Source of the DNA: a virus
DNA: 47,011 nt
Direction: 5' to 3' (one strand)
IMG/VR virus record: IMGVR_UViG_3300050821_002127
Span: 1 to 47,011 of that record
In this document: piece by piece, positions 1-47,011 of the stretch
How positions within the stretch are numbered: the first letter of the stretch is position 1
Layout of the letters: every line of letters begins with the position of its first letter
The notes under the pieces: model-generated
The model's input: the letters and a program-made list of their open reading frames with translations, nothing else
What the model was told of the DNA's origin: nothing
Database searches by the model: none
Made by a program: the position numbers and the translations under genes

Positions 1-97
1 ACCCCACCTTGGACGACCTCGGCCTTTCAAAGTACTGCTACGTGTTCGACCCACGTCGCATCAAGCTCCAGCCGATGGAAGGCGAGGACAACAAGCT
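1..97. repeat. Terminal direct repeat, left copy
   Basis: These 97 bases are identical to the last 97 of the window. The reading frame of the capsid gene continues across the join, so the two ends are the same piece of DNA seen twice. A circular or circularly permuted genome opened at an arbitrary point explains this better than true terminal repeats, because the repeat sits inside a gene. Confidence 0.97.
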
Positions 98-209
98 CAG
101 AATGCCTGAACGCCCCTATAACTACTTCGTCTTCCTCAAGTCGATGACGTGGACGGGCGCTATGACGGCTTCACAGCTCAACTGCAACGGCGTCTACGCT
201 ATCGCATAA
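3..209 (+). CDS. Major capsid protein, C-terminal part
   Basis: This is the end of the capsid gene whose start lies at 46080. Joined across the repeat, it encodes 347 residues. The frame enters from the window edge with no start codon of its own and stops at a TAA. The segment seen here contains a FDPRRIKL stretch and a YNYFVF stretch before a short C-terminal tail ending in YAIA. The exported-protein gene starts 1 base after the stop, so the two are probably translated from one transcript. Confidence 0.93.
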   Translation, partial: PTLDDLGLSKYCYVFDPRRIKLQPMEGEDNKLRMPERPYNYFVFLKSMTWTGAMTASQLNCNGVYAIA

Positions 210-210
210 T

Positions 211-957
211 ATGAAGAAAACACTTCTCTCAATCGGGCTGGCTTGCATTGCAACGCTAGCGCATGGTGCTGGTGCCCTTTGGGCGTCTCAGTCGTTTCTT
301 AACGGCCAGACCCTTTGGATTACCAATAACACCACCGTCACCAATCCGGGTTATTATAACTTCATCAACCACTTCGCATCGGGCGATAATGGTAACTGGT
401 TTATAACTCTCTCCGGCGCGAACGTTCAATCGGGTCTAACCAACACCGTGCTATCAACTAATGGCACGACTGTTATCACCAACCTAATAACGCTTCTTCC
501 TTATTGGAGCGCGTTCCCCAATCCCATCATCCCTTCCAACAACAATGGCGATGCTCAAAACAACGCCGCTATTTGGGTTGCAATGGACTACACCAACATC
601 CTGCTTGGGCCTAATCAGAACACATTCCCAACGCAGTATGCCACACCAACCAACTATATCTCCCCCGGCAATAGTAATGTTAACGTCGTAACATTCTACT
701 TTGCCCTCGGAGCTAATAGTGCTTACGGCGATAGCTATATGAATTATGACACCTTTAACACCAACGACTTCTTCTCCTTTGCGGTGACGAATCAAGGTGC
801 GGCGGGCGTCACATATCGTTATCAGCTTCCAACACAGTTCACCACTGGTGCCAACCGCATCATGTTTTGGAAAGCAACTGTTAGCAACATCAGCACCAAC
901 ACCCCCGGTATCCAGCTTAACCAGCTTTGGCTTGGGTCTTTCGGTAACGCACAGTAA
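211..957 (+). CDS. Exported protein of unknown function next to capsid gene
   Basis: The 248-residue product starts with a classic Sec signal peptide: two lysines, a hydrophobic core of about 15 residues, and an Ala-His-Gly-Ala cleavage region near residue 20. The mature part is rich in Asn, Thr, Gly and aromatic residues and looks all-beta. I recognise no family. It is co-transcribed with the capsid gene (1 base apart) and the transcript ends at a strong terminator 7 bases downstream, so it should be made in large amounts late in infection. Candidates are a decoration or virion surface protein, or a protein sent to the host envelope. The signal peptide favours the second. No Shine-Dalgarno sequence precedes the start. 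Confidence 0.8.
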   Translation: MKKTLLSIGLACIATLAHGAGALWASQSFLNGQTLWITNNTTVTNPGYYNFINHFASGDNGNWFITLSGANVQSGLTNTVLSTNGTTVITNLITLLPYWSAFPNPIIPSNNNGDAQNNAAIWVAMDYTNILLGPNQNTFPTQYATPTNYISPGNSNVNVVTFYFALGANSAYGDSYMNYDTFNTNDFFSFAVTNQGAAGVTYRYQLPTQFTTGANRIMFWKATVSNISTNTPGIQLNQLWLGSFGNAQ

Positions 958-963
958 TGGGTT

Positions 964-1000
964 GGGCCAGAGGGTTCGTGGTTGTCCCTCTGGCCCTTTT
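964..1000 (+). terminator. Strong intrinsic terminator after the capsid operon
   Basis: A perfect 11-bp stem (964-974 with 986-996, GGGCCAGAGGG and its complement) has an 11-base loop and is followed directly by TTTT. It lies between the exported-protein gene and the next virion gene. It should cut much of the read-through from the capsid genes into the tail genes. Confidence 0.9.
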
Positions 1001-1018
1001 CAACAATCGAATAAAATT

Positions 1019-1468: not shown

Positions 1469-1472
1469 ACTT

Positions 1473-2861: not shown

Positions 2862-2866
2862 CCCTT

Positions 2867-3691
2867 ATGACAAGAACATTCCCGATTCAATACCATATCA
2901 ATAGCTACTTGGTGCCATTGCCTTTAGCAATGTTTCCGGGCGGCATCTTCACCCTAGAAAAGCTTGAAGGCTACGTAATAGGCTCTGGCCCTGCCTACTT
3001 GCAGTTGTTTGACCTAGCAGCCACCGCTTCGCTTTCGTCTGGAGTGACGGTGCCCTTTAGGTCTATGCAACTCCAAGGAACCGACGGCTTCCTTTGGCAA
3101 TACGGAGACGACAACCTAGTCTTGCCTGAGCTACAAAATGGCCTCGTCATCGCCATTAGCTCGACCGACAACGTCTTCACCACCTATGCCTCGACCATGA
3201 ACCTTGTCGTCTCTATGGTCGAATGGGAGATGCAGTATACGCCTAATCCAACTAACCAAGCCTTGATAACTGTTGGCGATACAACGACGGCTATTTCTAG
3301 CCTCTCGGTGTGGACTAACGCTAATGCCACCGCTGGCGGCACTCAGCAGTCTCGCTTGGCCTTTGTCTATGTAATTAATGCTATCACCGCCGCCACCCAA
3401 AAGCTTTGGCTCCTGCTCTATGCCACCGACACTAGCCCCGCTGTCGGCACCCAAGCAATAGGCTCCTTCCCGATACCCCCTAAGGTCGGCACCGTTAATG
3501 GACAACTGAGCCTAAACTTCGGGTGGAATTCCAGTATAATCCCGACGCAGTATATACCTACCGACGCCACTGCTAATATCCAAGAAGCTGGCACGGTTAA
3601 GAGCGGATGCTTCTTACAGCTTTCCACTACTCCCGGTGTATATACAACTGCCGCGCCTCAAACAGTCACTATCAAAGCCCAATACTACTGA
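2867..3691 (+). CDS. Beta-rich virion protein, unrecognised
   Basis: The 274-residue protein is unrecognised. Composition and alternation suggest beta structure throughout, with no signal peptide, although residues 13-30 are fairly hydrophobic. It lies between the adaptor and the fibre, and its TGA overlaps the ATG of the fibre gene (TGATG), so the two are translationally coupled. A baseplate, fibre-attachment or head-fibre role is possible. Adjacent podoviral genes in this slot are usually structural, but I have no motif to prove it. Confidence 0.7.
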   Translation: MTRTFPIQYHINSYLVPLPLAMFPGGIFTLEKLEGYVIGSGPAYLQLFDLAATASLSSGVTVPFRSMQLQGTDGFLWQYGDDNLVLPELQNGLVIAISSTDNVFTTYASTMNLVVSMVEWEMQYTPNPTNQALITVGDTTTAISSLSVWTNANATAGGTQQSRLAFVYVINAITAATQKLWLLLYATDTSPAVGTQAIGSFPIPPKVGTVNGQLSLNFGWNSSIIPTQYIPTDATANIQEAGTVKSGCFLQLSTTPGVYTTAAPQTVTIKAQYY

Positions 3692-5574
3692 TGAAAAAGC
3701 TTCTTGCCCTTTTGGTCTTGTTAAGGTCTCTAACCGCCCTTGCTCAGCCCAATAGCCCCGGCCCTTACTGGAACGGCGGCGGGACAAATAGCGGTGGCGG
3801 AGGCGGTAGTACCACTACTAGCAATCTTGTAACTACTTCGTATACGAATATAATCTTCGCTACTAATCAAGCACTAGGAAACACATACACTAACTTATAC
3901 AATGTTCCAATAACAGTTTTTGGTGGAACTGTTAATCTAAACTCCAGTGGAACAGGTCAGCCGGTTTTATCGACAACAGTTCCTAGTCTTAGCGGTGCCA
4001 CATGGGGTGGAAATTCTGCAACTGGGCATTTAGCTATTAATCTGCCATCATTCTGCATTATTCCAAATGGCACATGGAGTTTCTCGGACTCCAGCACAGG
4101 AACTTCATCTTGTTCTATAATTCCTTCTAGTTTTCAGGTTTCAGTAATCCTGCCATTGAGTCAGACAAATACAATAGCCGGTTCTACTGCTGGTGGAACT
4201 AACGGAATTTTAATGCTTAATGGTTTTGGAACTAATACCACTCTCACAAATGCGACTCTTAATGGAAGCAACACAGTAAACGGAACGGTAGCATTCAACG
4301 CATCTGCATTCTTCGGATACAACGAGCAATTCATTTTTCAAAAGACTAATACGGCTGGGGGAAATAACATCATCGAGCTTACTGGAAGCACAAATAATTC
4401 AGGGCCGGGATTTGTATATGATATAATTGGACGAGCATTTAACGCGATTGACACCGGAATATGGGGAACGAATTTCTGGGGCTATGAAATATGGGACATC
4501 CCTCAAACCGCTGGCGTTCCATATTACGCTCCTTATGGAGATTTACCGCTAACTTACTTGGATGTTTCAGAGAGTGTGGGGCGCGTTTTCGCTCAAGGCG
4601 GTTCTCATGGTAACATTCCCGTATCTTGGCAGATGGTTGACCCCAAATACGGAATGCATTTTGGACTAGGCTACCTAGGTTCTACCAATAGTTCAGGAAA
4701 CGGTGGCACAAATAATCGTCTTTACGGGACAACGGTGAAGCAGAACGGAACTAACTTAGCTGATATACCAGCAGATGCTCCTTTGTTTGTGGACTGGGAC
4801 TTATTCAATGCAACATTTGATGTTTATGTTGGCACGTTCAGACTAGATAATGGAGTTACATTGAAAACCACGAATGGAGTATTAATTAAATCTAATGGGA
4901 CATTAGCCAATAATGTAGCCTTTGATTCCGCAGATACTTCATTAGTCAATCTATCCGCTGCTCAAATAGATGGAAAACGATTTGTTACTGGCTCTGATTC
5001 AGCCGTAACCGGTGCAACGGGGTTTTATGATGGTGGTGTTGCTCAGGGATTTAATATGACTGGTGGCAGCTTCGGTGTAACCGGTATGGATAACAATACC
5101 GTCATGTTTTGTTTCGGCGTAGCAGGAGATACTTTTGCGGACGGCGGCATATTTCCATGCGGCCCTCAGGGAAGTTTTTTTACGCATGATAATACTTGGG
5201 ATTTAGGAACATTGCTCAATGCTGCGGTCAGCACAAACAACCAAGTATATACGACAAACACTCAGGCTTGGAAAGTTATTGCTGGTTATCAGTTTCAGAG
5301 TCCGTTTGTAAGGCAAATAGCCGGACAGACAGGAGCCAAAACCGTCAACTTTCCTTCGGGGAGCATCCGCATCGCCGCGGCTGGCTCAAGCGTCGTATTG
5401 ACGGACAGCTACATCACAACGAACTCGATTGTGCTTCCAGTGTTGGCCACCCACGACACAACCGCATTCTCGGTATCTGCCGTCCCTGCCGCTGGAAGCT
5501 GCACGTTCTTTCTGAACGCGGCTGCCACTGGCGAAGTTGAGATTCGGTGGCTTGTGTGGAACGCAAACCAATAA
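3691..5574 (+). CDS. Tail fibre or spike protein with N-terminal signal-like peptide
   Basis: The 627-residue product has a fibre-like composition rich in Gly, Asn, Ser and Thr. The C-terminal 70 residues form a compact beta segment (IRIAAAGSSVVLTDSYI, PAAGSCTFFLNAA, EVEIRWLVWN) of the type that ends many phage receptor-binding fibres. The N-terminus reads as a Sec signal peptide: MKKLLALLVLLRSL followed by TALAQ, with an AxA-type cleavage site near residue 19, then a Gly-rich linker. The ATG at 3691 is chosen over one 84 bases upstream because it overlaps the preceding stop and gives the signal-like start. A signal peptide on a tail fibre is unexpected. Confidence 0.75.
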   Translation: MKKLLALLVLLRSLTALAQPNSPGPYWNGGGTNSGGGGGSTTTSNLVTTSYTNIIFATNQALGNTYTNLYNVPITVFGGTVNLNSSGTGQPVLSTTVPSLSGATWGGNSATGHLAINLPSFCIIPNGTWSFSDSSTGTSSCSIIPSSFQVSVILPLSQTNTIAGSTAGGTNGILMLNGFGTNTTLTNATLNGSNTVNGTVAFNASAFFGYNEQFIFQKTNTAGGNNIIELTGSTNNSGPGFVYDIIGRAFNAIDTGIWGTNFWGYEIWDIPQTAGVPYYAPYGDLPLTYLDVSESVGRVFAQGGSHGNIPVSWQMVDPKYGMHFGLGYLGSTNSSGNGGTNNRLYGTTVKQNGTNLADIPADAPLFVDWDLFNATFDVYVGTFRLDNGVTLKTTNGVLIKSNGTLANNVAFDSADTSLVNLSAAQIDGKRFVTGSDSAVTGATGFYDGGVAQGFNMTGGSFGVTGMDNNTVMFCFGVAGDTFADGGIFPCGPQGSFFTHDNTWDLGTLLNAAVSTNNQVYTTNTQAWKVIAGYQFQSPFVRQIAGQTGAKTVNFPSGSIRIAAAGSSVVLTDSYITTNSIVLPVLATHDTTAFSVSAVPAAGSCTFFLNAAATGEVEIRWLVWNANQ

Positions 5575-5577
5575 CCT

Positions 5578-6082: not shown

Positions 6083-6351
6083 AATGGAAACAATGGAAGG
6101 CGGGCCTTGGCATCGCAATGCTGACAGGCATATTTCAAGCCCTAGTTGGTCTTGGCGTAGGGTTAAAGTGGCAGCAGTTGCTAGTATTGTTTGCCTTTAA
6201 CATAGGCACGTCAGGGCTAGCCTACCTCAAATCCCATCCCGAAGATGATATTAAATTCGACACTACTATCACGACTAAAACATCGGTTGTGCAATCTACG
6301 GTCAAAACTCCTTCCGCCACGGAAGGCTCAACAACGCAAGAAAACAAATGA
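6079..6351 (+). CDS. Holin-like protein with two membrane segments
   Basis: The 90-residue protein has a short basic N-terminus, two hydrophobic segments (about 8-29, GLGIAMLTGIFQALVGLGVGL, and 33-49, QLLVLFAFNIGTSGLAYL) and a polar Thr/Ser-rich tail. This size and topology fit a class II-type holin, which would form lesions in the inner membrane at lysis. It overlaps its neighbours on both sides by 4 bases, within the membrane-protein cluster and 0.6 kb before a peptidoglycan-hydrolase candidate. Confidence 0.65.
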   Translation: MKWKQWKAGLGIAMLTGIFQALVGLGVGLKWQQLLVLFAFNIGTSGLAYLKSHPEDDIKFDTTITTKTSVVQSTVKTPSATEGSTTQENK

Positions 6352-18160: not shown

Positions 18161-18326
18161 CTTGGTCCTCTGGAGACATCTTTTCGATTATTACTGAATG
18201 GTCTTTGAAGTGCATAGGCTTTTTCCAGTAGTAAAGCTTTTCTAGTTCTTCTAGTAGGTTATTCCATTGCTTCCATTGTTCGTCGTCTTTTTCGTTGGTG
18301 AATCGTGGTGTTATTTTAATGTTCAT
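18117..18326 (-). CDS. Small last gene of the early operon
   Basis: The 69-residue protein is acidic-basic mixed and helical (WKQWNNLLEELEKLYYW), with no recognised family. Its ATG overlaps the helicase stop (ATGA), which supports it as real. It overlaps the end of the opposing giant late gene by 44 bases, so there is no room for a terminator between the two units here and converging transcripts would be complementary. Confidence 0.6.
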   Translation of the reverse strand: MNIKITPRFTNEKDDEQWKQWNNLLEELEKLYYWKKPMHFKDHSVIIEKMSPEDQAIVVRLRQDGELGS

Positions 18327-19597
18327 TTTATTTCCCCATTTCTACGTTTCTTCTCCATCTCAATCCCGGCCATAGTCCAGATTATGTGGGTTCGATTGTT
18401 AGTTGAGGATGGGTCAGAATTAGTTATCACAATCTGGCCGATAGTCTGCAAGTGAACTAGGACTTCTTCCAATCCCCTGACTCCGTTAGGAAAATCCCTA
18501 TAGTGTAAAGCTTCTAGCTTGGGCCGAGTTATACGCTGGCCTAGGCTCTGTGTCAAGGTGGCCATTATTAGAGCCGCGCAGCCTGCTAGTTCATTCTTCC
18601 CTACGCCGCTGGTTAAGCGTAAGACGTCCTTCTCAAGTCCATCCACTAAGGCTAAGGCTCCCTCTAGTTTCTCCGTCTTCATATCAGCTTGAAAGCCCGG
18701 CTCGGACATATGCAAGCCTAGGGCGACCTTCAAAAGCTGGACGTGCTTACGCCCGTGGAACTGTCCAAGGATAGGGTCTTCGGGCCGGTTCTGTTTATGT
18801 TTATGATACCAGTCCTTGAACCAGTTCATAGCATCGGGCGTGCGGCGAACTCGGCCATAGAAGTCCTCCGACTCGACTTGTTTTAGATGGGAGATAACGC
18901 GAGCAAGGGCTTCCTTAGCGCCGGGTGGCCGGCGAGGGTCGTCGATAACCTTGGTTGATTTACTATTAACAATGATTAGCCGCGAGCCTAGACCGCCGCT
19001 AAATAGGTCTAGCTTGAGATTGTGCATGAACCAAGTCGGGACTGCGCCAGCTATTAGCGATAGGTGCGGGTTAGCGAACCATTGTTTAGCATTAGGATTC
19101 TCTCGCCGCTGACCCTTGAAGCCCGTGCCAAAGTATTTGCTATCGAACACGTCGACTAAGAACTCGACAGTCTTGCCCTTGTCGACTGAGAGAAAGCTTG
19201 CTAGCTCGTTGTTGAGGATATAAAAGGGACGGTATTCGTAGATTGCCCCGGCCAACCCGTATTCGCCCTTAACGTCCTTCCACGTCTTACAACATCCATC
19301 CGAGGCCATAATGTCGGCTATGTCTTCACGACTCTGTATCGAGGCTGAGACATGCAAGTGAGGAAAGTGCTCAACCATTACGTCTTTGTTACAAGACATA
19401 GCGGTGTTCTTCCCACTCGCTGGGTCACCGACTAGGCAGACAAAAAGGTTCGGGTGAAAGCGGAAGCGGTCACCGTGCTCGACCCAGACTTTGCCGCCGG
19501 CTATTGCGCCTAGTAGGGAGAGAGCAGCCCAACGCAGGTATTCATCGGGGCATTCTGTTCCGCTATTATACAGAATATAGTCCGAAAGGTAGCTCAT
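18323..19597 (-). CDS. DUF3987-type replicative helicase/ATPase
   Basis: The 424-residue protein has a P-loop GDPASGKNT at about 57-65 (Walker A with Asn before Thr), an acidic strand YRPFYILNNELASFLS as likely Walker B, and the WFANPHLSLIAGAVPTWF and GGLGSRLIIV segments of DUF3987 proteins. These are hexameric-helicase-like ATPases often paired with primases in phages and plasmids. No separate primase gene is evident. It overlaps its neighbours by 4 bases on each side, directly after the polymerase, which fits a replication fork module. Confidence 0.8.
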   Translation of the reverse strand: MSYLSDYILYNSGTECPDEYLRWAALSLLGAIAGGKVWVEHGDRFRFHPNLFVCLVGDPASGKNTAMSCNKDVMVEHFPHLHVSASIQSREDIADIMASDGCCKTWKDVKGEYGLAGAIYEYRPFYILNNELASFLSVDKGKTVEFLVDVFDSKYFGTGFKGQRRENPNAKQWFANPHLSLIAGAVPTWFMHNLKLDLFSGGLGSRLIIVNSKSTKVIDDPRRPPGAKEALARVISHLKQVESEDFYGRVRRTPDAMNWFKDWYHKHKQNRPEDPILGQFHGRKHVQLLKVALGLHMSEPGFQADMKTEKLEGALALVDGLEKDVLRLTSGVGKNELAGCAALIMATLTQSLGQRITRPKLEALHYRDFPNGVRGLEEVLVHLQTIGQIVITNSDPSSTNNRTHIIWTMAGIEMEKKRRNGEIK

Positions 19598-19767
19598 TTG
19601 TACTTGAGCTTTAGTTCTTCGATTCTTTTAAGGACTTCCTCGGTAAAGACTTTCCACTGTTCTTCCGTGGGCTTCCCTTCTCCTATTATGTGCTTGCTGC
19701 CAGAAACTGTCGGGCAGCCGTCTTTGTCAAAGCCAGAGTCAACGCCTATTGCTATATAGTTTGTCAT
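19594..19767 (-). CDS. Small conserved-looking protein between polymerase and helicase
   Basis: The 57-residue protein (MTNYIAIGVDSGFDKDG at its start) is unrecognised: a beta start, then a C-terminal helix rich in Glu and Lys. The ATG overlapping the polymerase stop is chosen over a start nine codons upstream. It overlaps the helicase start by 4 bases. Tight coupling on both sides suggests an accessory to replication, but nothing in the sequence shows what it does. Confidence 0.6.
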   Translation of the reverse strand: MTNYIAIGVDSGFDKDGCPTVSGSKHIIGEGKPTEEQWKVFTEEVLKRIEELKLKYK

Positions 19768-22565
19768 ATTTTTCCTTCGCTCAGGTTGCCCCATGACGGG
19801 CCGTATGCACCATCAAAAGGGATGGTTATTGTCTGGCCCGCGATAGTTATTGGGTTAGCAAAGTAGGATTTAATGCGAGCAATCGCCCAAGCGGTATCGG
19901 ACTTCTTGAATTGCCCTGCAAGGGCGTCGTGGATTTGATGGAGGGGTTCGATTCGTAGCTTGGTGCCCAACCGCAATTTTGACACGGCATCATCTTGAAT
20001 ATTCCTATACAAGTCCCCGGATAGACGTGGTCTCTGAATACCTTGGGAGTCCTTCGGTTCCTGAATGGCGTCGAGCACTTCGGGCATTTCCATACATGGG
20101 CCGGCGATGTGAACCCTATTATTATGGTCGCACCACAGATTCCGCATGGCGAGGTTTGTGACATAACTGGTATTGGCTTGGGGTTCATAGGCTACTGCTT
20201 GAGTTAGTATTTTATCTGGCCTTCCGAAGAACACTCGCCGTTGGCCAGAAGCAGCGGTGAGGACTGGTTCACAGGTTTTCTTACCATTGATAAAGCGAGG
20301 CGATAGCTGCGCGGCTGTCCAGTTGTGCCATCGTGGAACGCCCCAATAGCGGCGCATGAAGAATTGTTTTAGCAAAGCGCATTCCCTTGGAGCCAGCACA
20401 AGCTTGCCCTCCGAGTCCTTTAAGATGTTGCGGCTAATGGTTATCTCACCCTCAAGATAATCCGCGCCGTGATGGACACGCTTACACGCGAAGTATTCCC
20501 ATGAGTCCTTTTTAACGGCCTTAGCTGCCTCGCGTATGGAGTCTCGGTCAGTGAAGTCACAAGGATAGCCTGCCATTTTGACAGCAAGAACCTTAGCAGG
20601 CTTAAGGCCAGCAAGGTAATCGTCCATCATCGTCGGGTCGCCAAGCATCTTGCAATACGCGGCGACTGTCCACCCGTCCGCTCCCTCTAAGTCGCATTGG
20701 AAGAACCAGTGGTCGAGGTCGGCAAGGAACAAGTCTCTGTCACCAAGAACCTGACCAGGTGCTTCAACTGTGGAAGTGTAGTTGGGAATTGTTTGTAAGT
20801 TGTACCCTGAGCCTGTGGGAGATTCATAGCAAGAGATACGACCAGTCTCCGAACCAACGATATTGTAGCCGCATCGTATTCTGCCGTCGTCATCAGTACC
20901 AATGGATAGCATGGTTTGGCGGGTATTAAGACTTTGGATGGTGATAGCCGCAAGAATGATGTTTTGCCTTGGGTCTTTGTCGAGGATTTTTGAGAGTTTG
21001 AGTAGTGCTTCATAGTCCGTTGTGATTCGCTTATTACCTTCTTTGTCTTCTTTATACTGCGGCGGGAGTGCGAGTGTTTCATAGAGGTAGGTTTTGAAGT
21101 CTTGGCTTTTGACGTTTAGGCTTTTCTGGCATAGGGTTTCGACCTCTCCAATAGACGAGAGAGAAGGATTTTGTTGATTAACAACTTCTCTGTAGCGGTT
21201 CCAGTTTTCGACTTCTTGAGAATAAAGTCTGTCGCCTTTCTTAGTAAGCATTGCCGCTTTAGCAGCTTCTTCGGCTTCGTGAAAGGAGGTCCAACTAAGG
21301 CCGCAGCCTGCCAGTCTATTAAGCCTTGCTTGCTCTTCATATAGTTTTTGTTGTAATGCTTTACGGCGACTCGCTGCCCCCTCTATATCATACCGGATGC
21401 CGCGAAGCTCCATGTAGCGAAGCGGCTCTAGTAGTTGGAGGTTTAGTTTGTAGTGTTCACGGCTCGCGCCTTCTATCTGACCGTCCAAGACTTGGGAAAT
21501 CTCAAGCGTGACCGCGGAGTCTTTGCAACAGTATTCATAAAACTCTTGGTCATTATTGCTCTTCCGCTCGGACTTGTAGTAAGGTTCTCTAGTGTATATT
21601 GAAGTCTGAACTCCAAGGGCTTTAGGAAGTTCGCAGTACAACTCCCAATGCGCCAGCATGGTATCGTGAACAATACCTCGGACTCGAATGTTATAGCTAA
21701 ACTGAAGGACGAAGGTATCATATAGGCAGTTTTGTAGTATCTTAGGGACGTTAGGGTCTTCGAGGGTTTGGGCTAGCGCTTTCCATATCAGGCACTCTTC
21801 GGAAGCAGGCCAGTAGCGTTTGCCGCTTTTGAGGACTAGCGGCACGATGAAGGCTTCGCTCGGTGAGGTAGCAAAACTAATACAAGACATCGTGCCGATG
21901 CCGCCTTCAATGTCTAGGGCGACTGGGCTTTTAGAATCCCTTATGGCCTTTAGTCTGCCAAGCAATTCTTCGCAACTCAGTGAGGTTATGAGAGAACGCT
22001 GCGGAATTACAAGCGTTGAAGAGAAGCTGTCTGCCACGGCTTTCTTTAAGTCTAACTGCAATAGTGGGGCGTCTTCGTAGTTTCTTAAAACCGATGCAGG
22101 ATGAAGAGTTGAGATACACTTCATACCATTCATCGCGGAGCCGTCCGCCGTCGATACGAATAAAGACCCGCGCCAGTTTCCTACCTTGTCTTGGAACCGT
22201 GCAGGCTTTAAGGGATGAACAGTCGTAGGGTTTCTTGCGGCTTTTAGGGCTGTGTTTCCCACAAGTACAACTATATTCGGCTGATACTTTTGCAGGTCGT
22301 TTTTTAGTTGGCATAGTCCTTCTTGTATTTCAGGGCCATCCCATTTGAATTTTGAGATGTCGTTTTCAGGTGGTTGGTGTTGAGAGACGTTACCGAGATA
22401 GCATTCGTCAAGGCTTGCGCCAGCACGCGATAGCAAGGCCGCGAGGAAGCGGCCTGACATGCCAACGAAGGGCCGTTGTAGTTGGACTTCATCATTTCCC
22501 GGCGACTCCCCTATAATCGCTATACGGTTGCCCTGGCCTATGGGGAAGTAGTTTGGGCATATCAT
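19764..22565 (-). CDS. Family A DNA polymerase fused to an N-terminal uracil-DNA-glycosylase domain
   Basis: The 933-residue protein has three parts. Residues 13-180 are a UDG-superfamily domain (GESPGNDE 19-26, PFVG 32-35, HPASVL 155-160), without the N-terminal CxxC of family 4 enzymes. Residues 205-390 are a 3'-5' exonuclease with all four metal residues (Asp218, Glu220, Asp283, Asp349). Residues 400-933 are the polymerase: TGR near 574, motif A with Asp625, motif B with Lys695 and Tyr703, motif C with His879-Asp880. Motif C reads HDA instead of the usual HDE, and motif A has Asp630 where Glu is common. UDG-PolA fusions are known from SPO1-like phages. It is the replicative polymerase of this phage. 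Confidence 0.93.
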   Translation of the reverse strand: MICPNYFPIGQGNRIAIIGESPGNDEVQLQRPFVGMSGRFLAALLSRAGASLDECYLGNVSQHQPPENDISKFKWDGPEIQEGLCQLKNDLQKYQPNIVVLVGNTALKAARNPTTVHPLKPARFQDKVGNWRGSLFVSTADGSAMNGMKCISTLHPASVLRNYEDAPLLQLDLKKAVADSFSSTLVIPQRSLITSLSCEELLGRLKAIRDSKSPVALDIEGGIGTMSCISFATSPSEAFIVPLVLKSGKRYWPASEECLIWKALAQTLEDPNVPKILQNCLYDTFVLQFSYNIRVRGIVHDTMLAHWELYCELPKALGVQTSIYTREPYYKSERKSNNDQEFYEYCCKDSAVTLEISQVLDGQIEGASREHYKLNLQLLEPLRYMELRGIRYDIEGAASRRKALQQKLYEEQARLNRLAGCGLSWTSFHEAEEAAKAAMLTKKGDRLYSQEVENWNRYREVVNQQNPSLSSIGEVETLCQKSLNVKSQDFKTYLYETLALPPQYKEDKEGNKRITTDYEALLKLSKILDKDPRQNIILAAITIQSLNTRQTMLSIGTDDDGRIRCGYNIVGSETGRISCYESPTGSGYNLQTIPNYTSTVEAPGQVLGDRDLFLADLDHWFFQCDLEGADGWTVAAYCKMLGDPTMMDDYLAGLKPAKVLAVKMAGYPCDFTDRDSIREAAKAVKKDSWEYFACKRVHHGADYLEGEITISRNILKDSEGKLVLAPRECALLKQFFMRRYWGVPRWHNWTAAQLSPRFINGKKTCEPVLTAASGQRRVFFGRPDKILTQAVAYEPQANTSYVTNLAMRNLWCDHNNRVHIAGPCMEMPEVLDAIQEPKDSQGIQRPRLSGDLYRNIQDDAVSKLRLGTKLRIEPLHQIHDALAGQFKKSDTAWAIARIKSYFANPITIAGQTITIPFDGAYGPSWGNLSEGKI

Positions 22566-22747: not shown

Positions 22748-23064
22748 ATTAGGCGTTTAACCATATCGGGGAGTTGACTATATCGAATGTCGAAGCTCTC
22801 TTCACCCTCATGCAAGGTGATGCGTTGCAAGGTGCCGTGAGACCAGAAGAACTCATAAGCTTTGTTTCCGTATGCGATTCGAGTAGTCTGCGGGTCTTCG
22901 GGCACTGGTTCGATTGTCCATTGGTTTGATTCTAAGTGGGCACGGACATCGGGCCAGTAGCGACCCTTGAGGCCGGAGAGTAAGGTGCCGGTTTCGATGA
23001 CGTAGTCCGATTCGACTAGGAACTCGGAGCTATGGCGGCCGTCGAAGATAAGGTAGCGGGTCAT
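22744..23064 (-). CDS. Hypothetical early protein
   Basis: The 106-residue protein is unrecognised. It appears to be alpha/beta, beginning RYLIFDGRHSSEFLVES and ending in an amphipathic helix, with no cysteine cluster or P-loop. It overlaps the methyltransferase gene and the next small gene by 4 bases each, within the fully packed stretch that leads to the polymerase. Confidence 0.6.
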   Translation of the reverse strand: MTRYLIFDGRHSSEFLVESDYVIETGTLLSGLKGRYWPDVRAHLESNQWTIEPVPEDPQTTRIAYGNKAYEFFWSHGTLQRITLHEGEESFDIRYSQLPDMVKRLI

Positions 23065-23660
23065 TTTCCTACTTTCTGGAAAAGGCTTAGGCAGCGAAAA
23101 CGATTGCCCGTTGAGCGCACGTAGCTGATAACGCCTACAAGCGCGAGTTGTTTGTTTGAGAATAACGGCAAGCAGCCATCCATCCAGACTATGTAGCCGC
23201 CGGGCTGGAGGACGTTATGGCATTCGCTTAGCACTTTTTGGCGATTGCACAAGCAGGTGCCGTATATTTCTGCCTTGTCTTCACTGTAGGGAGGGTCGCA
23301 GTATATGAGGTCAGGTTTGAAGGACAAGTGGCTTGAGAGTTCTTCGACGTTGATTTCGAGGTCGCTTTTGTACTTACCAGTATGGTCAATGCCTACGCGA
23401 GTATATTTGTCCGAGCTAGGCAACGAGCCGGAGAACAAGTGCACAACCTTGGTAGCGTCCTCGAAGAGAGTGCCCATACGTTTTAGGTATTCTATTTGGT
23501 AAGAGCCATAGTATTCCGAGACATTACCGCCGCCGACAAACCAGAAGCCTGTGATAAAGGGCCTAGGTGGTGTGCCGAACTGGTCGACGTGTAGGGGATT
23601 TAGGTGGGGGAAGGAGCGGTTGTAACAATCGGCCCGTTGGTAGAGAGATAGGGGTTTCAT
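23061..23660 (-). CDS. DNA N6-adenine/N4-cytosine methyltransferase
   Basis: The 199-residue protein has the SAM-binding motif region VVHLFSGSLP and the catalytic DPPY in DLIYCDPPYSEDKAEIYG, followed by the LQPGGYIVWMD strand seen in this phage methyltransferase group. It should methylate an exocyclic amino group of adenine or cytosine; the target site cannot be read from sequence. It overlaps the ParB-like gene by 4 bases. ParB-like and methyltransferase modules are often adjacent or fused in phages. Whether it protects phage DNA from restriction is open. Confidence 0.82.
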   Translation of the reverse strand: MKPLSLYQRADCYNRSFPHLNPLHVDQFGTPPRPFITGFWFVGGGNVSEYYGSYQIEYLKRMGTLFEDATKVVHLFSGSLPSSDKYTRVGIDHTGKYKSDLEINVEELSSHLSFKPDLIYCDPPYSEDKAEIYGTCLCNRQKVLSECHNVLQPGGYIVWMDGCLPLFSNKQLALVGVISYVRSTGNRFRCLSLFQKVGK

Positions 23661-24883
23661 ACTAGCTCCACCTCTCCAAGTTTTTCCCTATACCATTCTA
23701 CTATTTCGGCTTGCTTCTCCGCGAAGTATTCGTCGCTATCATAAAACCACACTGGGGTGTTTCCACAATCCAGCACATGCAAGGGGTCGATGCCACTGAC
23801 ACATAGAACTGGCTTATCCCTCGACGCGAGGTTTGTTACCAACCACTGCACAACTGGCGCGGGCAAGAAGGCATCGTTAGTTGGTAGGCAAGACATAATA
23901 GAGGTAAAGGGCTGAGGGCGTTCTGTCGCCACGTGTTTGCAAACCAAAAGGCCAGCGAGGTAGTTCAATGCTGTCGGCCAGCCACTAGGCTTGAAGCCGC
24001 CAACCTGATTCCATATCAAGGGCCAAGGTTGGACGTTGTAGCCAAGGTCAGTCAACAACAACCGGTCATCGTCAAAGCTCTTAGGGTCGCGCCATAGGAC
24101 TAGGTAGCCGGTTGGACTGAGGGCTTTGAGCGCGGCAGATATGTCTTTGTCCGAGGCGTCAAAAGCTAAGACTAGCTCATATTGCTCCGTAAAAGAGCCT
24201 TCGCTTAGACGGCCTTTGTGGGCGTGGATTGATATTAAGGTCGGCCCGTCTCCTATCCCCGGCATAAGGTCTTCGCCTTCGATGCTTCCCTCGGTGGGGT
24301 TTCTAACAAAAACCTCACTAGGCAAGGCAGCTTTGCGTCTGCGCTCTAGCTCTGCATTAACCTCTCTTTCTTTAGGTTCAAGCACCATGCCTTTGTATGC
24401 GCCGTAGATTGAGGTGTAGGTTTTGGCTTCGTCTGGTCGTTCTTTAATCGCATCCGCCACCTGCAAGGCTTTGGAGATTTCGCCCACGGTTAGGTCGGTT
24501 AGCACCGCTAGCTTGGTGGTTGTCCAAGCATCATCAGGCGTGCCCGCGAGGGATTTAATAGCGTGAAGGCGTTTGAGAGCAAGGGCTTTTTCCCACCAGG
24601 TGCGCTCCTTGCGATGAATATCCTCGGCGAGTTCGAGTTCTTCTTTTTGCAACGGCGTCAAAGTGCCAATGTCCCAAGCTTCGATTTCTGTCCAGCCTAG
24701 GCTGGTGGCGGCGGCGATTCGGCGGCGACCTGTTACTAGTTTGAACCGTCCATTTGTTTGTAAGCTAACGGTAATTGCTTCGGCCTGCCCAGTCTCTTTA
24801 AGGCTCTCAGCTAGGGAAGCTATGTCGCCTAGGTCAACACGCTGACGCGGGCCGAAGTCTACTTTATCGATGAGGATTTTCAT
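23657..24883 (-). CDS. ParB-like protein with degenerate methyltransferase-like C-terminus
   Basis: The 408-residue protein starts with a ParB/Srx N-terminal domain (residues 1-70; LAESLKETGQ, LVTGRRRIAAA). A helical part with HTH-like character follows (to about 180; KLAVLTDLTVGEISKAL). From about 205 to 380 the pattern (LISIHAHKGR, YELVLAFDASD, SPTGYLVLWRDP, GYNVQPWPLIWNQ) resembles the methyltransferase half of phage ParB-methyltransferase fusions, but the catalytic DPPY position is lost. It probably binds DNA, and may steer the active methyltransferase encoded next to it. A 14-bp palindrome lies inside the gene (24692-24705). Confidence 0.75.
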   Translation of the reverse strand: MKILIDKVDFGPRQRVDLGDIASLAESLKETGQAEAITVSLQTNGRFKLVTGRRRIAAATSLGWTEIEAWDIGTLTPLQKEELELAEDIHRKERTWWEKALALKRLHAIKSLAGTPDDAWTTTKLAVLTDLTVGEISKALQVADAIKERPDEAKTYTSIYGAYKGMVLEPKEREVNAELERRRKAALPSEVFVRNPTEGSIEGEDLMPGIGDGPTLISIHAHKGRLSEGSFTEQYELVLAFDASDKDISAALKALSPTGYLVLWRDPKSFDDDRLLLTDLGYNVQPWPLIWNQVGGFKPSGWPTALNYLAGLLVCKHVATERPQPFTSIMSCLPTNDAFLPAPVVQWLVTNLASRDKPVLCVSGIDPLHVLDCGNTPVWFYDSDEYFAEKQAEIVEWYREKLGEVELV

Positions 24884-24888: not shown

Positions 24889-25152
24889 TTAAAAAGGGTC
24901 TTCTACTTTATCGTTTTTTCTTGAATTGCACTGTGAACAAAGCACTTGAAGGTTTCCTTTCAGGTACTCTCGTTTATAAAAAGACATACGGCTTGACCAT
25001 TCTTTTTTATGGTGTTCTTTTGGGTCTCCAACCGGCACGATGACGTCAAACTCAAGCTCTTCGTCTGAACCGCATTCGACGCATTTTCTACCCATTTTTT
25101 CAAAGAGCCAATCACGTACGGTTCTTGCCCAAGCCTTCTGACGCTTTCCCAT
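24889..25152 (-). CDS. Small HNH endonuclease-like protein
   Basis: The 87-residue protein has a zinc frame CVEC ... CSQC (two CxxC pairs) and the HNH core pattern FDVIVPVGDPKEHHKK, then GNLQVLCSQCNSRKND. The usual DH at the first motif reads DV. I recall other small phage HNH proteins with a similar change, followed by HH. Such proteins may nick DNA near packaging or replication sites, or act as homing nucleases. Its start abuts the stop of the preceding gene, with 5 bases to the ParB-like gene. Confidence 0.75.
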   Translation of the reverse strand: MGKRQKAWARTVRDWLFEKMGRKCVECGSDEELEFDVIVPVGDPKEHHKKEWSSRMSFYKREYLKGNLQVLCSQCNSRKNDKVEDPF

Positions 25153-25406: not shown

Positions 25407-26622
25407 GTTTTTTACCCTCCGGTATTGTTTCGTCTATCATACGGTCGAAAGAAGACCAATCGAAAGATAGTTCTTTACCCTTGACCTCCTTAGCATGTTT
25501 CATGCAATCATTAGCCGCCGCACGGGGTGTTTCGCCTAGGCCAACGACTTGTACGGGGAAGTTTTTACTTGGTATAGTATAGTAGATGTCGCCGTTCTTC
25601 CAAGCCTTTGCGAGCTTAACGTATCGGCGATAGCGTTCAGGAAACCTTATCTCCATGCGATGTTCCTCGGCCCAACCGGAAGAGCCGCATAGCACCGCGG
25701 CATAGTTAGCATTTGGAAGGATGTTTTCGATATAGCCCTTGGAGCCACGTGTGATTATGTCAGATATATTAACTATGCATTCGAGCATGGCGGCTAAAGG
25801 TGGGTGAGCCGCGCGAATAGTAAGGTCTATGGGGTAGCCTTTTTTGTCGGGCGTCACCCTTGCCTCGGTTGAAACAAAGCTAATGGCGTTGGTTAGTTCT
25901 TTGTCAATAACCTTATTAATCTTGGCTAGACAATCGGGCAACACCTTGCTATTAAAGCGTCCGATATAGCTAGTGTCTTTATCCTCGTAGCCGTAGGGTT
26001 GGATGGCTGGTCGGATGCCGTTGATTACTAAGCTATCAGACCCAACCTCTTGCGCCGGGTCGATAGGCGTGACTATCATAAACTCCAGCTTAGGGTCGGT
26101 TCCGTACTCGTATAGCAGGGGAGCGATGTAGGTTTCTTGCGTAGCAAGCCAATCTTCATGGAAGAAAGTTTCTAGCTCACGCGTGCCAGAGCATTTAATC
26201 CAACGCTTCTTATAGCCGGGCTTTTGAAGCTTTTCGATTAGCGTTGGGACTCCGACGACATGCTCGGCATCAGCACTGGGCAGGCCAGCGTCATGCATCT
26301 TGCTGTAGGCGTACCAGCGGTCTAGCTCTAGTCGTTCGGCGGCTTGGCCTGCTCCCCAGACTTTATGGCCTTTGGCTCTAAGCCAATCAACCTCGCCGCC
26401 GGAGTAGGTGTCCATGCAGACGACGTAATCAGCATAGGAAAGAGCGGTGTAGAAGTCGACTTTTTCGACGCCCTCTTTTTCAAAGCCGCTACCCATCTGG
26501 ACGATGTCGTGGTGGGAGTGTTTGTCGGTGCTGGAGATTGAATAACCCACTTTATGACCGGCCCTAGCGAGCGTTATAGCAGCTTCAATGCATAACCCGT
26601 GGTCGGATACTAATATTTTCAT
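25390..26622 (-). CDS. PurD-like ATP-grasp ligase
   Basis: The 410-residue protein opens with MKILVSDHGLCIEAAITLARAG, a Rossmann-like N-terminal domain as in PurD. Then come VWGAGQAAERLELDRWYAYSKMHDAGLP (the segment that precedes the ATP-grasp domain), a central ATP-grasp region, and STEARVTPDKKGYPIDLTIR with acidic and Asn metal ligands. It ends with the VVGLGETPRAAANDCM segment of the C-terminal domain. PurD joins glycine to phosphoribosylamine in purine synthesis; phage relatives usually diverge and may ligate another amine. The chosen ATG overlaps the HNH stop (ATGA). No other purine genes are present. The substrate is unknown. Confidence 0.8.
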   Translation of the reverse strand: MKILVSDHGLCIEAAITLARAGHKVGYSISSTDKHSHHDIVQMGSGFEKEGVEKVDFYTALSYADYVVCMDTYSGGEVDWLRAKGHKVWGAGQAAERLELDRWYAYSKMHDAGLPSADAEHVVGVPTLIEKLQKPGYKKRWIKCSGTRELETFFHEDWLATQETYIAPLLYEYGTDPKLEFMIVTPIDPAQEVGSDSLVINGIRPAIQPYGYEDKDTSYIGRFNSKVLPDCLAKINKVIDKELTNAISFVSTEARVTPDKKGYPIDLTIRAAHPPLAAMLECIVNISDIITRGSKGYIENILPNANYAAVLCGSSGWAEEHRMEIRFPERYRRYVKLAKAWKNGDIYYTIPSKNFPVQVVGLGETPRAAANDCMKHAKEVKGKELSFDWSSFDRMIDETIPEGKKHGIEF

Positions 26623-27086
26623 AGGTGCCCCCAAGATAAGCCTCGTTTTATGTTACTTATGGTTCTCGAACTTACTCCAAAAATAGGCCCAAGTCTTTTT
26701 TCTTTTACCCCCTTAGCTAGTAACCTTTTTATTTCAAGGACATTTGCTTCATTTAAAATAGCTCTAGCACTATTCGACCCTCTAGTTTTTTCGGGATTGT
26801 TTCTTTTTTTATTTATCATGTCTTGTATGTTATCTTTTTCTGTGCCCGCAAAAAGATGTTTTGGATTAACGCATAAAGGTGTATCGCAACGATGACATAC
26901 GTCGAGATTAGTAGCCCCGTTAAAGGCTTCGTATACTACTCTATGTGTTGGATAAACTTTATACTCTATTTTTATGCTTCCGTAGCCACCACTTGTCTTT
27001 GCTCCTTGCCAAAGCCAGCAGCCGTCTTCTCCGTTTGGTTTAGATATACGAGCAAAGATTCTTTGTGCGTAAAATTCTGCATTCAC
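26619..27086 (-). CDS. HNH homing-type endonuclease with C-terminal HTH
   Basis: The 155-residue protein has the HNH_3 pattern: GCWLWQGAKTSGGYG, then HRVVYEAFNG, DVCHRCDTPLCVNPKHLFAGTEKDN with the catalytic histidines and cysteines. A C-terminal helix-turn-helix follows (EIKRLLAKGVKEKRLGPIFG, SSRTISNIKRG). Free-standing nucleases of this type usually home between phage genomes. The GTG start chosen overlaps the stop of the tiny membrane gene and follows a long GGAGG-rich stretch. A GTG seven codons upstream is possible. The AT-rich composition differs from its neighbours, consistent with recent transfer. Confidence 0.8.
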   Translation of the reverse strand: MNAEFYAQRIFARISKPNGEDGCWLWQGAKTSGGYGSIKIEYKVYPTHRVVYEAFNGATNLDVCHRCDTPLCVNPKHLFAGTEKDNIQDMINKKRNNPEKTRGSNSARAILNEANVLEIKRLLAKGVKEKRLGPIFGVSSRTISNIKRGLSWGHL

Positions 27087-27193
27087 TTCCCCCTCCCCTT
27101 CCTCCACCGTTCTATGGCGGCTAGTATTGAGTTTAGTATTAGAAGACAGTTGAAGACTAAGGCGATGCCTAGAAAGATGTTTTGGATTGTCAT
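27083..27193 (-). CDS. Tiny single-membrane-segment protein
   Basis: The 36-residue open frame encodes a hydrophobic helix (IFLGIALVFNCLLILNSILAA) and a basic tail (RWRKGRGK). Its TGA overlaps the GTG of the HNH gene. No good Shine-Dalgarno precedes the ATG. The clean membrane-plus-basic-tail design supports a real small membrane protein, but the length makes chance possible. Confidence 0.45.
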   Translation of the reverse strand: MTIQNIFLGIALVFNCLLILNSILAAIERWRKGRGK

Positions 27194-40771: not shown

Positions 40772-41380
40772 ATGTTCGACGACTTGACGCCATTGCCGGT
40801 TCAGCAGAGAAGGGGTCGCTCGATGTCGGAGCAGTGCTTATGGAAGAGGTCCAAGAACCGGCGGCGATACAACGGGATTAACTCTAAACTTGAGCGCGCA
40901 TTCTATAACGACTCCGACCCAGCATACCTTAGAGCAAGAGAGTTGCCACGCGACCGTGTTATGGTCTACATGGCCGCGCAAGGTAAGAGCAACAAAGAGA
41001 TTGCCGAATTATTCGGGGTTATTCCGTCAACAGTCGCTAATACTCTCAAGCAGCCTTGGGCGCGCCAACTTATGCAAGTAGAGCAAGAAGCTGTGGGCGT
41101 GGACGCCTTGACTGACCTTATCAAGCAACACGGCAAGGGGGCGTTTCTTAATATCGTCAAACTAGGTGAAGACCCTGATGCTCCTGCTAACGTTCGGCTT
41201 GAAGCCAATAAAGTTGTATTGGATAGGCTACTCGGTAAACCGAATACTCCTATTGAAGTGACCAATAAGAAACCCGCCGCCGAAAAAACAAGGGAAGAAC
41301 TTGAGCAATCCGTTGCAAATATCGCCGCAAGACTTGGAGGACTTGAAGGAGTTCCGTCTGCGGACGAAGATAAAGCATAG
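40772..41380 (+). CDS. terS: Small terminase subunit
   Basis: The 202-residue protein has a basic N-terminal region and a helix-turn-helix in RVMVYMAAQGKSNKEIAELF followed by GVIPSTVANTLKQPW, as in small terminases that recognise the packaging site. A central helical oligomerisation part and a Lys/Glu-rich tail follow. It directly precedes large terminase and overlaps it by 80 bases. An ATG 17 codons later (40823), preceded by AGAAGG, is an equally good start and would remove a basic N-terminal extension. Confidence 0.8.
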   Translation: MFDDLTPLPVQQRRGRSMSEQCLWKRSKNRRRYNGINSKLERAFYNDSDPAYLRARELPRDRVMVYMAAQGKSNKEIAELFGVIPSTVANTLKQPWARQLMQVEQEAVGVDALTDLIKQHGKGAFLNIVKLGEDPDAPANVRLEANKVVLDRLLGKPNTPIEVTNKKPAAEKTREELEQSVANIAARLGGLEGVPSADEDKA

Positions 41381-42812
41381 TTTCAGAGCGTGGGCTAGGC
41401 AATGTGGCTTCGAGCCAGCGTTGCATCACCTAAAACTAATCGATGAAATCGAAGCTGTCGAACGTGGCGAGGTTAAAAACCTTATCATTAACATGCCACC
41501 CGGAAGCGCGAAAAGTACGTATACCACAAAGCTCTTTCCCGGTTGGTACTTGGCTCGGCTACCCTACCGAACAATTCTTGCTTGCTCTTACTCTTACACG
41601 CTTGTCGAAGGCTTCGGACGCAACGCTAGGAATTTCGTAAAGCTGCATGAGCGTGTGCTTGAAACCAGTCTCAAGCCTGATAGTAAAAGTGCGGGCGAAT
41701 GGGAAACCACTAATGAAGGACGCTTCTTTTGCGCGGGCACTAATGCAGGTATCGCTGGCCACCGTGCCGACCTCGCCCTCATTGACGACCCAATCGGCAC
41801 CGAAGAAGACGCCAATAGTAAAAGCTACCGTGACAAACAATGGGACTGGTATTGGAACGACCTCATACCCCGCTTGAAGCCGAACGCGTCAGTAGTCATC
41901 ATAGCCAACCGCCGTCACGAAGATGACCTCGTAGGCCGTTTACTTGAAAACGAGCCGGGCAAATGGCGCGTCATCTCCTTTCCTATGGAGGCGGAGGAAA
42001 ACGATGTGCTTGGTCGCAAGCCCGGCGAACGCCTTTGGCCTGAGTACTTTACCGACGACATGGTTGCCACGGCCAAAAAGAATAGCAAGACATGGAACGG
42101 CCTTTACCAACAGCATCCGACTGCCGAGGAAGGTGACTTCTTTAAGCGTGAGTGGCTCTTGGGCTACACCAGCAAAGAGCTTGCCGCCGCGAACCTTCGA
42201 TACTACTGCACCTCCGACCATGCCATCGGAAAGGCTCAAACAAACGACCTTACCTGCCTCATGCCCTTTGGCGTCGACCAAGACGATAACATCTGGGTCT
42301 TGCCCGACGTTCGCTGGTCTCGCCTTGCAAGTGACGAAGCCGTTAACCAAATGTTCGAGCTAATGACCAAGTACCGCCCCATAACCTGGTACGCCGAAAA
42401 GGGCCACATCTCCACAGCTATCGGCCCCTTCCTTCGCAAACGAATGAGAGAAGACCATGTCTATTGTAATATCGAAGAACTCGTACCGGGCCGCGACAAA
42501 AGAGCGCGCGCTCAGGCTATTCACGGAAGAATGTCAAATCGAATGGTTCGCTTTCCAAAGTACACTGAATGGTGGCCGCGAGCCGAACACGAGCTTCTTT
42601 CATTCACCGGCTCTGGCGGCGATAAGCACGACGATTTCGTGGACGCAGTTGCCCTTATTGGATTGGGCTTGGACAAGTTCGTCGCACCATCAGCTAACAA
42701 AGCCCCGGTAGTGGAGAATCTTAATATAGACTTTGTGCCAACAATGAGGTGGATGAAGGGTATCGAGAAGCAACAAAGCTTTGTTCGCAAGTGCCGTTCG
42801 TTAGACTACTAA
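41301..42812 (+). CDS. terL: Large terminase subunit
   Basis: The 503-residue protein has the ATPase motor motifs: Walker A PPGSAKST at about 66-73 after NLIINM, and Walker B LALIDDP at about 158-164. The C-terminal RNase H-like nuclease carries acidic residues in CTSDHAIG and DKHDDFVDAVAL. It packages DNA into the prohead and cuts it. The start is a TTG inside the small-terminase gene, preceded by GGGAAGAA; no later start keeps the N-terminal domain whole. The portal gene follows after 1 base. Confidence 0.95.
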   Translation: MSNPLQISPQDLEDLKEFRLRTKIKHSFRAWARQCGFEPALHHLKLIDEIEAVERGEVKNLIINMPPGSAKSTYTTKLFPGWYLARLPYRTILACSYSYTLVEGFGRNARNFVKLHERVLETSLKPDSKSAGEWETTNEGRFFCAGTNAGIAGHRADLALIDDPIGTEEDANSKSYRDKQWDWYWNDLIPRLKPNASVVIIANRRHEDDLVGRLLENEPGKWRVISFPMEAEENDVLGRKPGERLWPEYFTDDMVATAKKNSKTWNGLYQQHPTAEEGDFFKREWLLGYTSKELAAANLRYYCTSDHAIGKAQTNDLTCLMPFGVDQDDNIWVLPDVRWSRLASDEAVNQMFELMTKYRPITWYAEKGHISTAIGPFLRKRMREDHVYCNIEELVPGRDKRARAQAIHGRMSNRMVRFPKYTEWWPRAEHELLSFTGSGGDKHDDFVDAVALIGLGLDKFVAPSANKAPVVENLNIDFVPTMRWMKGIEKQQSFVRKCRSLDY

Positions 42813-42813
42813 C

Positions 42814-44955: not shown

Positions 44956-45005
44956 GCCGCGGCAAATGGTCCTCTATGGTCTGCATATAGAAAGACTAAC
45001 AATTT

Positions 45006-46067
45006 ATGAAAAAAGATACCACGGTCGCTAAGCAGGAAGAGAACTCGACCGACTCTTCAGTCGCTAACCGAGAGGAATCGACAACCTCTGATGAAAAACA
45101 CGAACCTACCTTTGCGGAAGCAATGGCGGCAGTTGCCGCGAAAGCACAAGACTCAAAGCCTGAGGGTGAAACCGATGACGATGAGGATAGCGGCGACGAA
45201 GAAGACTCATCCACTTCTGATAGTGAGGTTTCTAAGCGAAACACCACTGAGGGCGAAGAGGACAAGACCGAAGAGGATAAGGAAGACACCTCCAAAGTCG
45301 ATGCCTCTAAAGACGAAAAGCTCCCGTTCCATGACCATCCCCGCTGGAAGGAAGTTGTTGGTGAAAACCAACAGCTCAAGGCCCAAAAGCCTTTGATTGA
45401 ACAGGCGCAACAACTCAACAGCTTTTGTGAGCAAAACCGGATAACCCCGGAAGAACTCAACAACAGCCTTGAGTTTATGCGATTGTTCAAAACCGACCCC
45501 GAAGCGGCGAGGAAAATGCTTGAACCGACGTGGAAAAGCCTTGAGGGATACGTCGGCAACGAGCTTCCCGCCGACCTTCAAGCTAAGGTGGTTGAAGGAA
45601 AAATGGAAGAAGCCGACGCCCGCGAGCTTGCAAGGCTCCGTGCGCAGAACACTACCATTAAAAATGGCAACGCAAACAACGCCCAATGGCAAGCTCAACA
45701 GGCCGTCAAACAGACTGTCGAAGCTATGAACCAGTGGGATATGTCGCGTCGCGGCACCGACCCGGCCTTCAAGCCGAAAGGTGACGCTAGCCTGCCAGAT
45801 GGCAAGTGGGAGCTAGTGAACATGAAAGTAGCCTCGTTAATTCAGGCTACGCCCCCTAAAACCCAAGCCGAAGCTATTGCTTTGCTTGAGAAGGCGTATA
45901 CTGAAATCGGCAAGACCTACTCACAATTCATGCCCGCTCGTCGCAAGACCGCCCCGAACCTAAACTCCAATGGTTCTTCCAACACAACACGCGAAGTCTG
46001 GAAACCCAAAACCTTTGCCGACGTCATCAAAGGCGCAGCCGAAGGCCGTAAGCAGACTTACGCATAG
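45006..46067 (+). CDS. Capsid scaffold protein
   Basis: The 353-residue protein has a very acidic, Ser/Thr/Asp/Glu-rich first 100 residues. LPFHDHPRWKEVVGENQQLK follows, a wording common in podoviral scaffolds, then helical segments and a basic C-terminus (about 310-353) that should bind the capsid protein. It directs prohead assembly and leaves before or during packaging. It starts 50 bases after the portal and 12 bases before the capsid gene. Confidence 0.85.
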   Translation: MKKDTTVAKQEENSTDSSVANREESTTSDEKHEPTFAEAMAAVAAKAQDSKPEGETDDDEDSGDEEDSSTSDSEVSKRNTTEGEEDKTEEDKEDTSKVDASKDEKLPFHDHPRWKEVVGENQQLKAQKPLIEQAQQLNSFCEQNRITPEELNNSLEFMRLFKTDPEAARKMLEPTWKSLEGYVGNELPADLQAKVVEGKMEEADARELARLRAQNTTIKNGNANNAQWQAQQAVKQTVEAMNQWDMSRRGTDPAFKPKGDASLPDGKWELVNMKVASLIQATPPKTQAEAIALLEKAYTEIGKTYSQFMPARRKTAPNLNSNGSSNTTREVWKPKTFADVIKGAAEGRKQTYA

Positions 46068-46079
46068 GAAAACAACACT

Positions 46080-47011
46080 ATGGCATTAGGACTTGTCGTT
46101 GCAAACGACATCGTAAATGAAGCTCTAATCTATTATGTCAGGGGCAAAACCTTGCCTCAGACTATGGAAGAGCGGCCTTTGGTTAAAGTACTTCGGGAAA
46201 ACCAGAAGACTTTCCCATCGGGCAACCTTCAAATCAGCACTCCGATTCAGGGTGCTTACATGAGCGACACTGCTGGCTTCTTCTCTGGCTTTCAGGAAGA
46301 CGACCAGTTGACCTTCACGCAAGCTCAGAATGCGCTTCGCGCGGTCTATCCGTGGAAAGAAATGCACGCTGGACTTATCATTAGCGAAACAGAGCTAAAG
46401 AAAGACGGCATCTCGGTTAACGATAACATGAAGACCTCCGAACATTCGGGGGTTGAACTGACTCGCTTAACCGGCATCCTCGAAAACCGCCTCGATGACT
46501 TCGCTGAATCATGGGCGCGCATGTTTAACCTGACCTGTTGGAAGGACGGCTCGCAAGACGCCAAGGTCTTCCCCGGTCTGCAATCAATCCTGCCTGTTGG
46601 CGACCCTACCGTGGGCGTCACTGGAGGCTTGAATCGCGCCACCTACTTCTGGTGGAGGCATCGTTCGAATCAGACGCTTGTGCCTAACGGCGACACTCAG
46701 TTCTTAACAAGGTTCTTGCGGAACGAACTCCGCCAGCTTCGCCGGTACCAAGGCAAGCCGTCTGTTGTCCTCTGCGGGAACGACTTCATCAACGGCCTTG
46801 AAACCGAAATCGGCAACAAGGGACTCTACACCATGGAAGGTTGGACGTCCGACAAGAACACGGACTTTGGCTTCGCTGACATCCGCCTCAAAGGCTTGGG
46901 CAAGTTTCAATATGACCCCACCTTGGACGACCTCGGCCTTTCAAAGTACTGCTACGTGTTCGACCCACGTCGCATCAAGCTCCAGCCGATGGAAGGCGAG
47001 GACAACAAGCT
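46080..47011 (+). CDS. Major capsid protein, N-terminal part
   Basis: The frame runs off the window end and continues at position 3; the joined protein has 347 residues. It begins MALGLVVANDIVNEALIYYV and contains helix- and strand-rich capsid-like segments (ENRLDDFAESWARMFNLTCW, FLRNELRQLRRYQGKPSVVLCGNDF). It follows the scaffold gene, as is standard. AGGAAAA precedes the ATG by about 10 bases. Its fold is probably HK97-like by gene order; I did not see a diagnostic motif. Confidence 0.9.
   Translation, partial: MALGLVVANDIVNEALIYYVRGKTLPQTMEERPLVKVLRENQKTFPSGNLQISTPIQGAYMSDTAGFFSGFQEDDQLTFTQAQNALRAVYPWKEMHAGLIISETELKKDGISVNDNMKTSEHSGVELTRLTGILENRLDDFAESWARMFNLTCWKDGSQDAKVFPGLQSILPVGDPTVGVTGGLNRATYFWWRHRSNQTLVPNGDTQFLTRFLRNELRQLRRYQGKPSVVLCGNDFINGLETEIGNKGLYTMEGWTSDKNTDFGFADIRLKGLGKFQYDPTLDDLGLSKYCYVFDPRRIKLQPMEGEDNK
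46915..47011. repeat. Terminal direct repeat, right copy
   Basis: This is identical to bases 1-97. With the overlap removed the unit is 46,914 bp. Confidence 0.97.

Follow-up and report, generated by a model that had tools for sequence, protein, structure and literature searches.

Complete absence of GATC from an uncultured phage genome and lineage-dependent loss of other palindromes among its relatives

Why should a phage genome contain plenty of GATA, GATG and GATT and not a single copy of the palindrome GATC? In the window (the whole stretch of DNA analyzed here, 47,011 bases), GATC was counted zero times on both strands, as the first-pass annotation had claimed, against an expectation that depends on the null used, 95 sites by a trinucleotide Markov model (order 2) or 183 by base composition, the latter close to its figure of about 180. 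GATA, GATG and GATT are indeed common. The comparison of k-mer counts with a Markov expectation that it had suggested places GATC (0 versus 95) lowest of the 256 tetramers, and among palindromic tetramers no other is wholly absent. The features that define the extent of this absence are the following.

1..47011, no strand: virus record, GATC-free throughout; the window is the entire record, and a 97-bp repeat closes the 46,914-bp genome
1..97, no strand: left copy of the terminal repeat (the same sequence recurs at 46915-47011)
46915..47011, no strand: right copy of the terminal repeat (97-bp direct repeat)
46080..47011, plus strand: major capsid protein, split by the record end and continued at 98-209 (PHROG 9953 major head protein, E 2e-28)

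The capsid reading frame continues over the seam and the zero count holds across it too, so that, given the repeat, the absence of GATC applies to the complete circularly closed genome. No integrase or repressor was found among the window proteins searched, and the phage may be lytic, judging by a gene content in which many proteins have no assignment. No nucleotide-level relatives of the first 25 kb were found in the annotated phage collection. Three proteins (211-957, 3688-5574 and 6348-6935) have signal-peptide-like starts and Asn/Thr-rich bodies; they matched no family, had no homologues among the relatives compared, and are possibly related to host range. The segment 39804-40771, at the switch from the leftward to the rightward gene block, contains no convincing gene.

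The deficit is not explained by the proteins encoded or by their codon usage. When synonymous codons were re-dealt within each gene, keeping the proteins and the per-gene codon usage (300 replicates, 56 genes), 100 ± 8 GATC were expected (z = -12.1), and 0 of ca. 100 counts as elimination under the restriction-site criterion of Rusinov et al. 2018 (contrast ratio < 0.1, expected > 15). The ca. 4.2 kb of non-coding DNA has none either, with ca. 16 expected from composition. Within genes, all 135 Asp codons that precede a C are GAC, while elsewhere 41% of Asp is encoded by GAT, and the Ile codon ATC is never used after a codon ending in G. Seven relatives that keep GATC (see below) provided 52 GATC sites at dipeptides conserved in the window; none is kept there, compared with 31% for tetramers in general, and the usual replacement is the silent change of GATC to GACC. 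The loss is therefore evolutionary, and it has proceeded via silent changes.

Other palindromes are affected besides GATC, and the initial impression that it alone was missing does not hold. By observed over expected counts, the window is also poor in CCWGG (16/84), GGWCC (7/62), GRGCYC (2/30), AATT (82/175) and GTAC (42/103). Palindromic 6-mers without GATC number 343 versus 571 expected, and non-palindromic ones 41,191 versus 40,937. Both here and in the pooled relatives, the depleted words are those that are palindromic or resemble Type II sites, and words at large are spared. That GATC has such company strengthens a reading in terms of restriction.

Relatives were found, and a tree was built, with a polymerase as the marker. 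The genes involved are these.

19764..22565, minus strand: fusion of a family-4 UDG domain with a PolA-type DNA polymerase (NCBIfam TIGR00758, DNA polymerase I models)
18323..19597, minus strand: DUF3987 primase/helicase-like protein, conserved in the family (PF13148; PHROG 14296)
41301..42812, plus strand: terminase large subunit (PHROG 38, E 3e-99; PF17289, PF03237)

Querying IMG/VR with the UDG-polymerase recovered 46 loci, the nearest at ca. 60% identity. The terminase query of viral contigs found no relatives, and the portal query of viral contigs gave only distant kin, which were used as a control set; one of them (L009) has 0 of 42 expected GANTC, the CcrM site. Degenerate palindromes were enumerated without preselection against the same codon-shuffle null. 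Most of the purged words resemble Type II sites, namely GATC, GTAC, GCGC, GGWCC, CCWGG, CCSGG, GRGCYC, RGATCY and RCATGY, which we take to be sites of known Type II enzymes. Calling a word purged at a ratio of 0.25 or less, in members with at least 10 expected and with a few near-identical loci included, GRGCYC is purged in 26/35, RGATCY in 23/37, GTAC in 19/45, GGWCC in 8/44 and GATC in 3/45. The set differs from lineage to lineage: GCGC and GGCC are purged in L047, and GTAC, GGWCC, ACSGT, CCSGG and RCATGY in L039. A relative of the latter (L089-L091) has GTAC 0/117, GGWCC 1/47, ACSGT 4/60, CCSGG 9/51 and RCATGY 0/20, with normal GATC. The group thus shares a gap in RGATCY and GRGCYC, and the losses of GATC, GTAC, GGWCC, CCWGG and GCGC vary by lineage. 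When 38 dereplicated members were pooled, 6-mer palindromes had a median observed/expected ratio of 0.57 and other 6-mers one of 1.01, and the bottom of the ranking of 2080 pooled 6-mers consisted almost exclusively of palindromes together with words belonging to GRGCYC or RGATCY. Since palindromes are low as a class, the milder depletions may in part reflect general palindrome avoidance and not one named enzyme. ATCGAT (40/242) and TTCGAA (120/362) are strongly depleted in the pooled polymerase family, although TCGA overall is not (1.04).

The complete purge of GATC is confined to the window and two relatives (L015 and L016), in which every GATC context is lost. GATC-keeping sisters of the same clade have RGATCY at 0/39, 1/22, 2/28, 2/32, 5/43, 7/44 and 8/36; it is mainly this context that they have lost, and YGATCR and the mixed contexts are mostly retained. 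Because the sisters lack the RGATCY context only, we infer two pressures, a widespread one of RGATCY type and another of GATC type acting on the lineages of the window and of L015/L016. In the polymerase tree the window groups with L017 and L020, apart from L015 and L016. Parsimony on this tree favors two independent origins of the GATC loss, but the AU test does not reject a single one (p = 0.097).

The explanation that best accounts for these data, and which we hold to be very probable, is that GATC was purged by long selection from Type II restriction in past hosts, both the enzyme and the hosts being putative. Host Type II enzymes would make double-strand cuts at GATC, so that a mutation creating the site would make incoming unmethylated DNA cleavable and the variant would be lost, and silent changes destroying sites would be retained. 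GATC would then be the extreme case among several thinned Type II-type sites (RGATCY, GRGCYC, GTAC, GGWCC and CCWGG), with a GATC-type pressure (Sau3AI/MboI/DpnII-like) having been met by the phage of the window and by L015/L016. Counter-restriction, here through elimination of Type II sites, had been proposed at the outset, and it gains support from the other near-lost palindromes, from the lineage-specific purges and from T7 and phage K as controls. According to Rusinov and colleagues, elimination is found mainly in non-temperate dsDNA phages and concerns the sites of orthodox Type II systems (PMC6286503). All 46 phages with hosts encoding Type IIM GATC enzymes had a GATC ratio of <1 (PMC6286503), and GATC is the recognition site of Sau3A, an orthodox Type II system (PMC6346686, PMC6532042). 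A scan of bacterial genome contigs for the host gave two remote polymerase-like matches (Xanthocytophaga and Streptomyces), which were uninformative.

Selection could instead be linked to Dam, either through DpnI-like cutting of methylated GATC or through MutH nicking hemimethylated GATC during mismatch repair. T7, which grows in Dam+ E. coli, combines low GATC with low CCWGG, and CCWGG is low in the window as well. However, a Dam-linked cause should deplete only GATC and Dam-linked words, and GGWCC, GRGCYC, CCWGG, AATT and GTAC were found depleted too. It leaves unexplained why GGWCC, GRGCYC and GTAC have nearly vanished from members of this group, and equally why the sisters lost RGATCY and kept YGATCR. 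MutH and SeqA are not known outside a part of the Gammaproteobacteria. All this makes a Dam-linked origin improbable. It has been argued that, where avoidance of GATC was tied to modification-dependent enzymes, orthodox Type II systems are mostly behind it (PMC6286503).

Less credible still are explanations that look for the cause among the phage's own genes, of which four are relevant.

23061..23660, minus strand: DNA methyltransferase, 199 aa, DPPY motif (PHROG 3816, E 3e-40)
23657..24883, minus strand: ParB-like protein, adjoining the methyltransferase (PF02195; PHROG 3264)
24889..25152, minus strand: HNH endonuclease (PF01844)
26619..27107, minus strand: HNH endonuclease (PF13392; PHROG 1872)

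Besides the two HNH nucleases the window encodes one PD-(D/E)XK protein, and many of its proteins have no known function; a GATC-cutting nuclease of the phage that degrades host DNA, and whose site the phage does not carry, could be among them. Nevertheless, no window gene is common to the purged L015/L016 and missing from all GATC-keeping sisters, a comparison limited by the incomplete L015 sequence and by the chance that unrelated genes serve the same role. GATC-keeping L014, L018 and L019 all carry a homologue of the HNH gene at 24889, and neither L016 nor the L015 fragment has the HNH gene at 26619. The screen of window genes against the relatives, L015 being a fragment, thus turned up no nuclease peculiar to the phages that have purged GATC. 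We consider such self-avoidance very unlikely, and just as little weight attaches to its extension to the whole group, in which the parallel purges of the relatives would stem from swapped specificities of phage nucleases.

The methyltransferase, whose gene lies beside that of the polymerase, might similarly form one system with the loss, as a GATC methylase left over after its sites had gone. The first-pass annotation had suggested that it may belong to one arms race with the loss and had added that it could not be needed to protect GATC here. The second point is borne out, there being no site to protect, but no link to the loss was seen: homologues occur both in GATC-keeping members (L013, L014, L018, L019 and L021) and in the purged L015 and L016, so that the enzyme does not track GATC and was rejected as part of its history. 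That the two form one system is, like self-avoidance, scarcely plausible. The gene itself has a varied arrangement. In the window it and the ParB-like gene are separate, in L014, L015 and L016 they form one fused gene (both queries match a single ORF), and in L017 and L020 the ParB-like gene is present and no methyltransferase homologue was detected. No match to the methyltransferase was found among the solved structures or phage records searched.

As for a bias in composition or codon use, or an artifact of the assembly or the library, the general scarcity of palindromes in the family speaks for it, but the shuffle preserving amino acids and codon usage still yields ca. 100 GATC, the frames are open, the proteins align with relatives carrying GATC at the same codons, non-coding DNA is likewise free of it, and the 52 lost sites together with the GAC and ATC pattern rule it out for practical purposes.

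Type II restriction by past hosts is thus the reading that we carry forward. If it is right, the missing palindromes are a record of the restriction enzymes met by a phage lineage, readable for a whole uncultured group without any known host. Such fingerprints could help to pair uncultured phages with their hosts and to predict restriction by particular laboratory hosts. In our opinion the most interesting part is the group-wide fingerprint, with the RGATCY loss nested inside that of GATC. The loss of GATC is in itself an already known strategy (T7, phage K); what is reported here is that purge sets differ across a group of related phages.

Among described phages, Microcystis phage Mel-JY34, Caulobacter phage Kuura and Vibrio phage VS-ABTNL-3 have a distantly related polymerase and a comparable gene block, and they keep GATC (ratios of 1.23, 1.17 and 0.65, respectively); Kuura has purged CCWGG, VS-ABTNL-3 GGCC, and Mel-JY34 no word. 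Microcystis phage Mae-Yong1326-1 (L092) has GTAC 1/84 and GANTC 1/66, and its recorded host is Microcystis, yet its G+C content is 72%. The staphylococcal podovirus phiAGO1.3 has two GATC and no GGNCC, and elimination has been described as its main means of evading restriction (PMC6346686), although it belongs to another phage group, with a 17.6-kb genome and a known host. Staphylococcus phage K (Kayvirus) has, like the window, no GATC (0/77 in the 50 kb tested), a loss that has been attributed to restriction by Sau3A (PMC6532042). Phage K is a myovirus of low-G+C Staphylococcus in which host and enzyme are known, whereas the window belongs to an unrelated uncultured phage, and besides GATC the same test lists only one weak degenerate word for phage K. 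The nearest match to the set of depleted sites in the window is T7, with GATC at 5/120 (five or six sites left), CCWGG at a ratio of 0.04 and GRGCYC at 0.06; in T7, however, GGWCC (1.21) and GTAC (1.07) are normal, versus 0.11 and 0.43 in the window.
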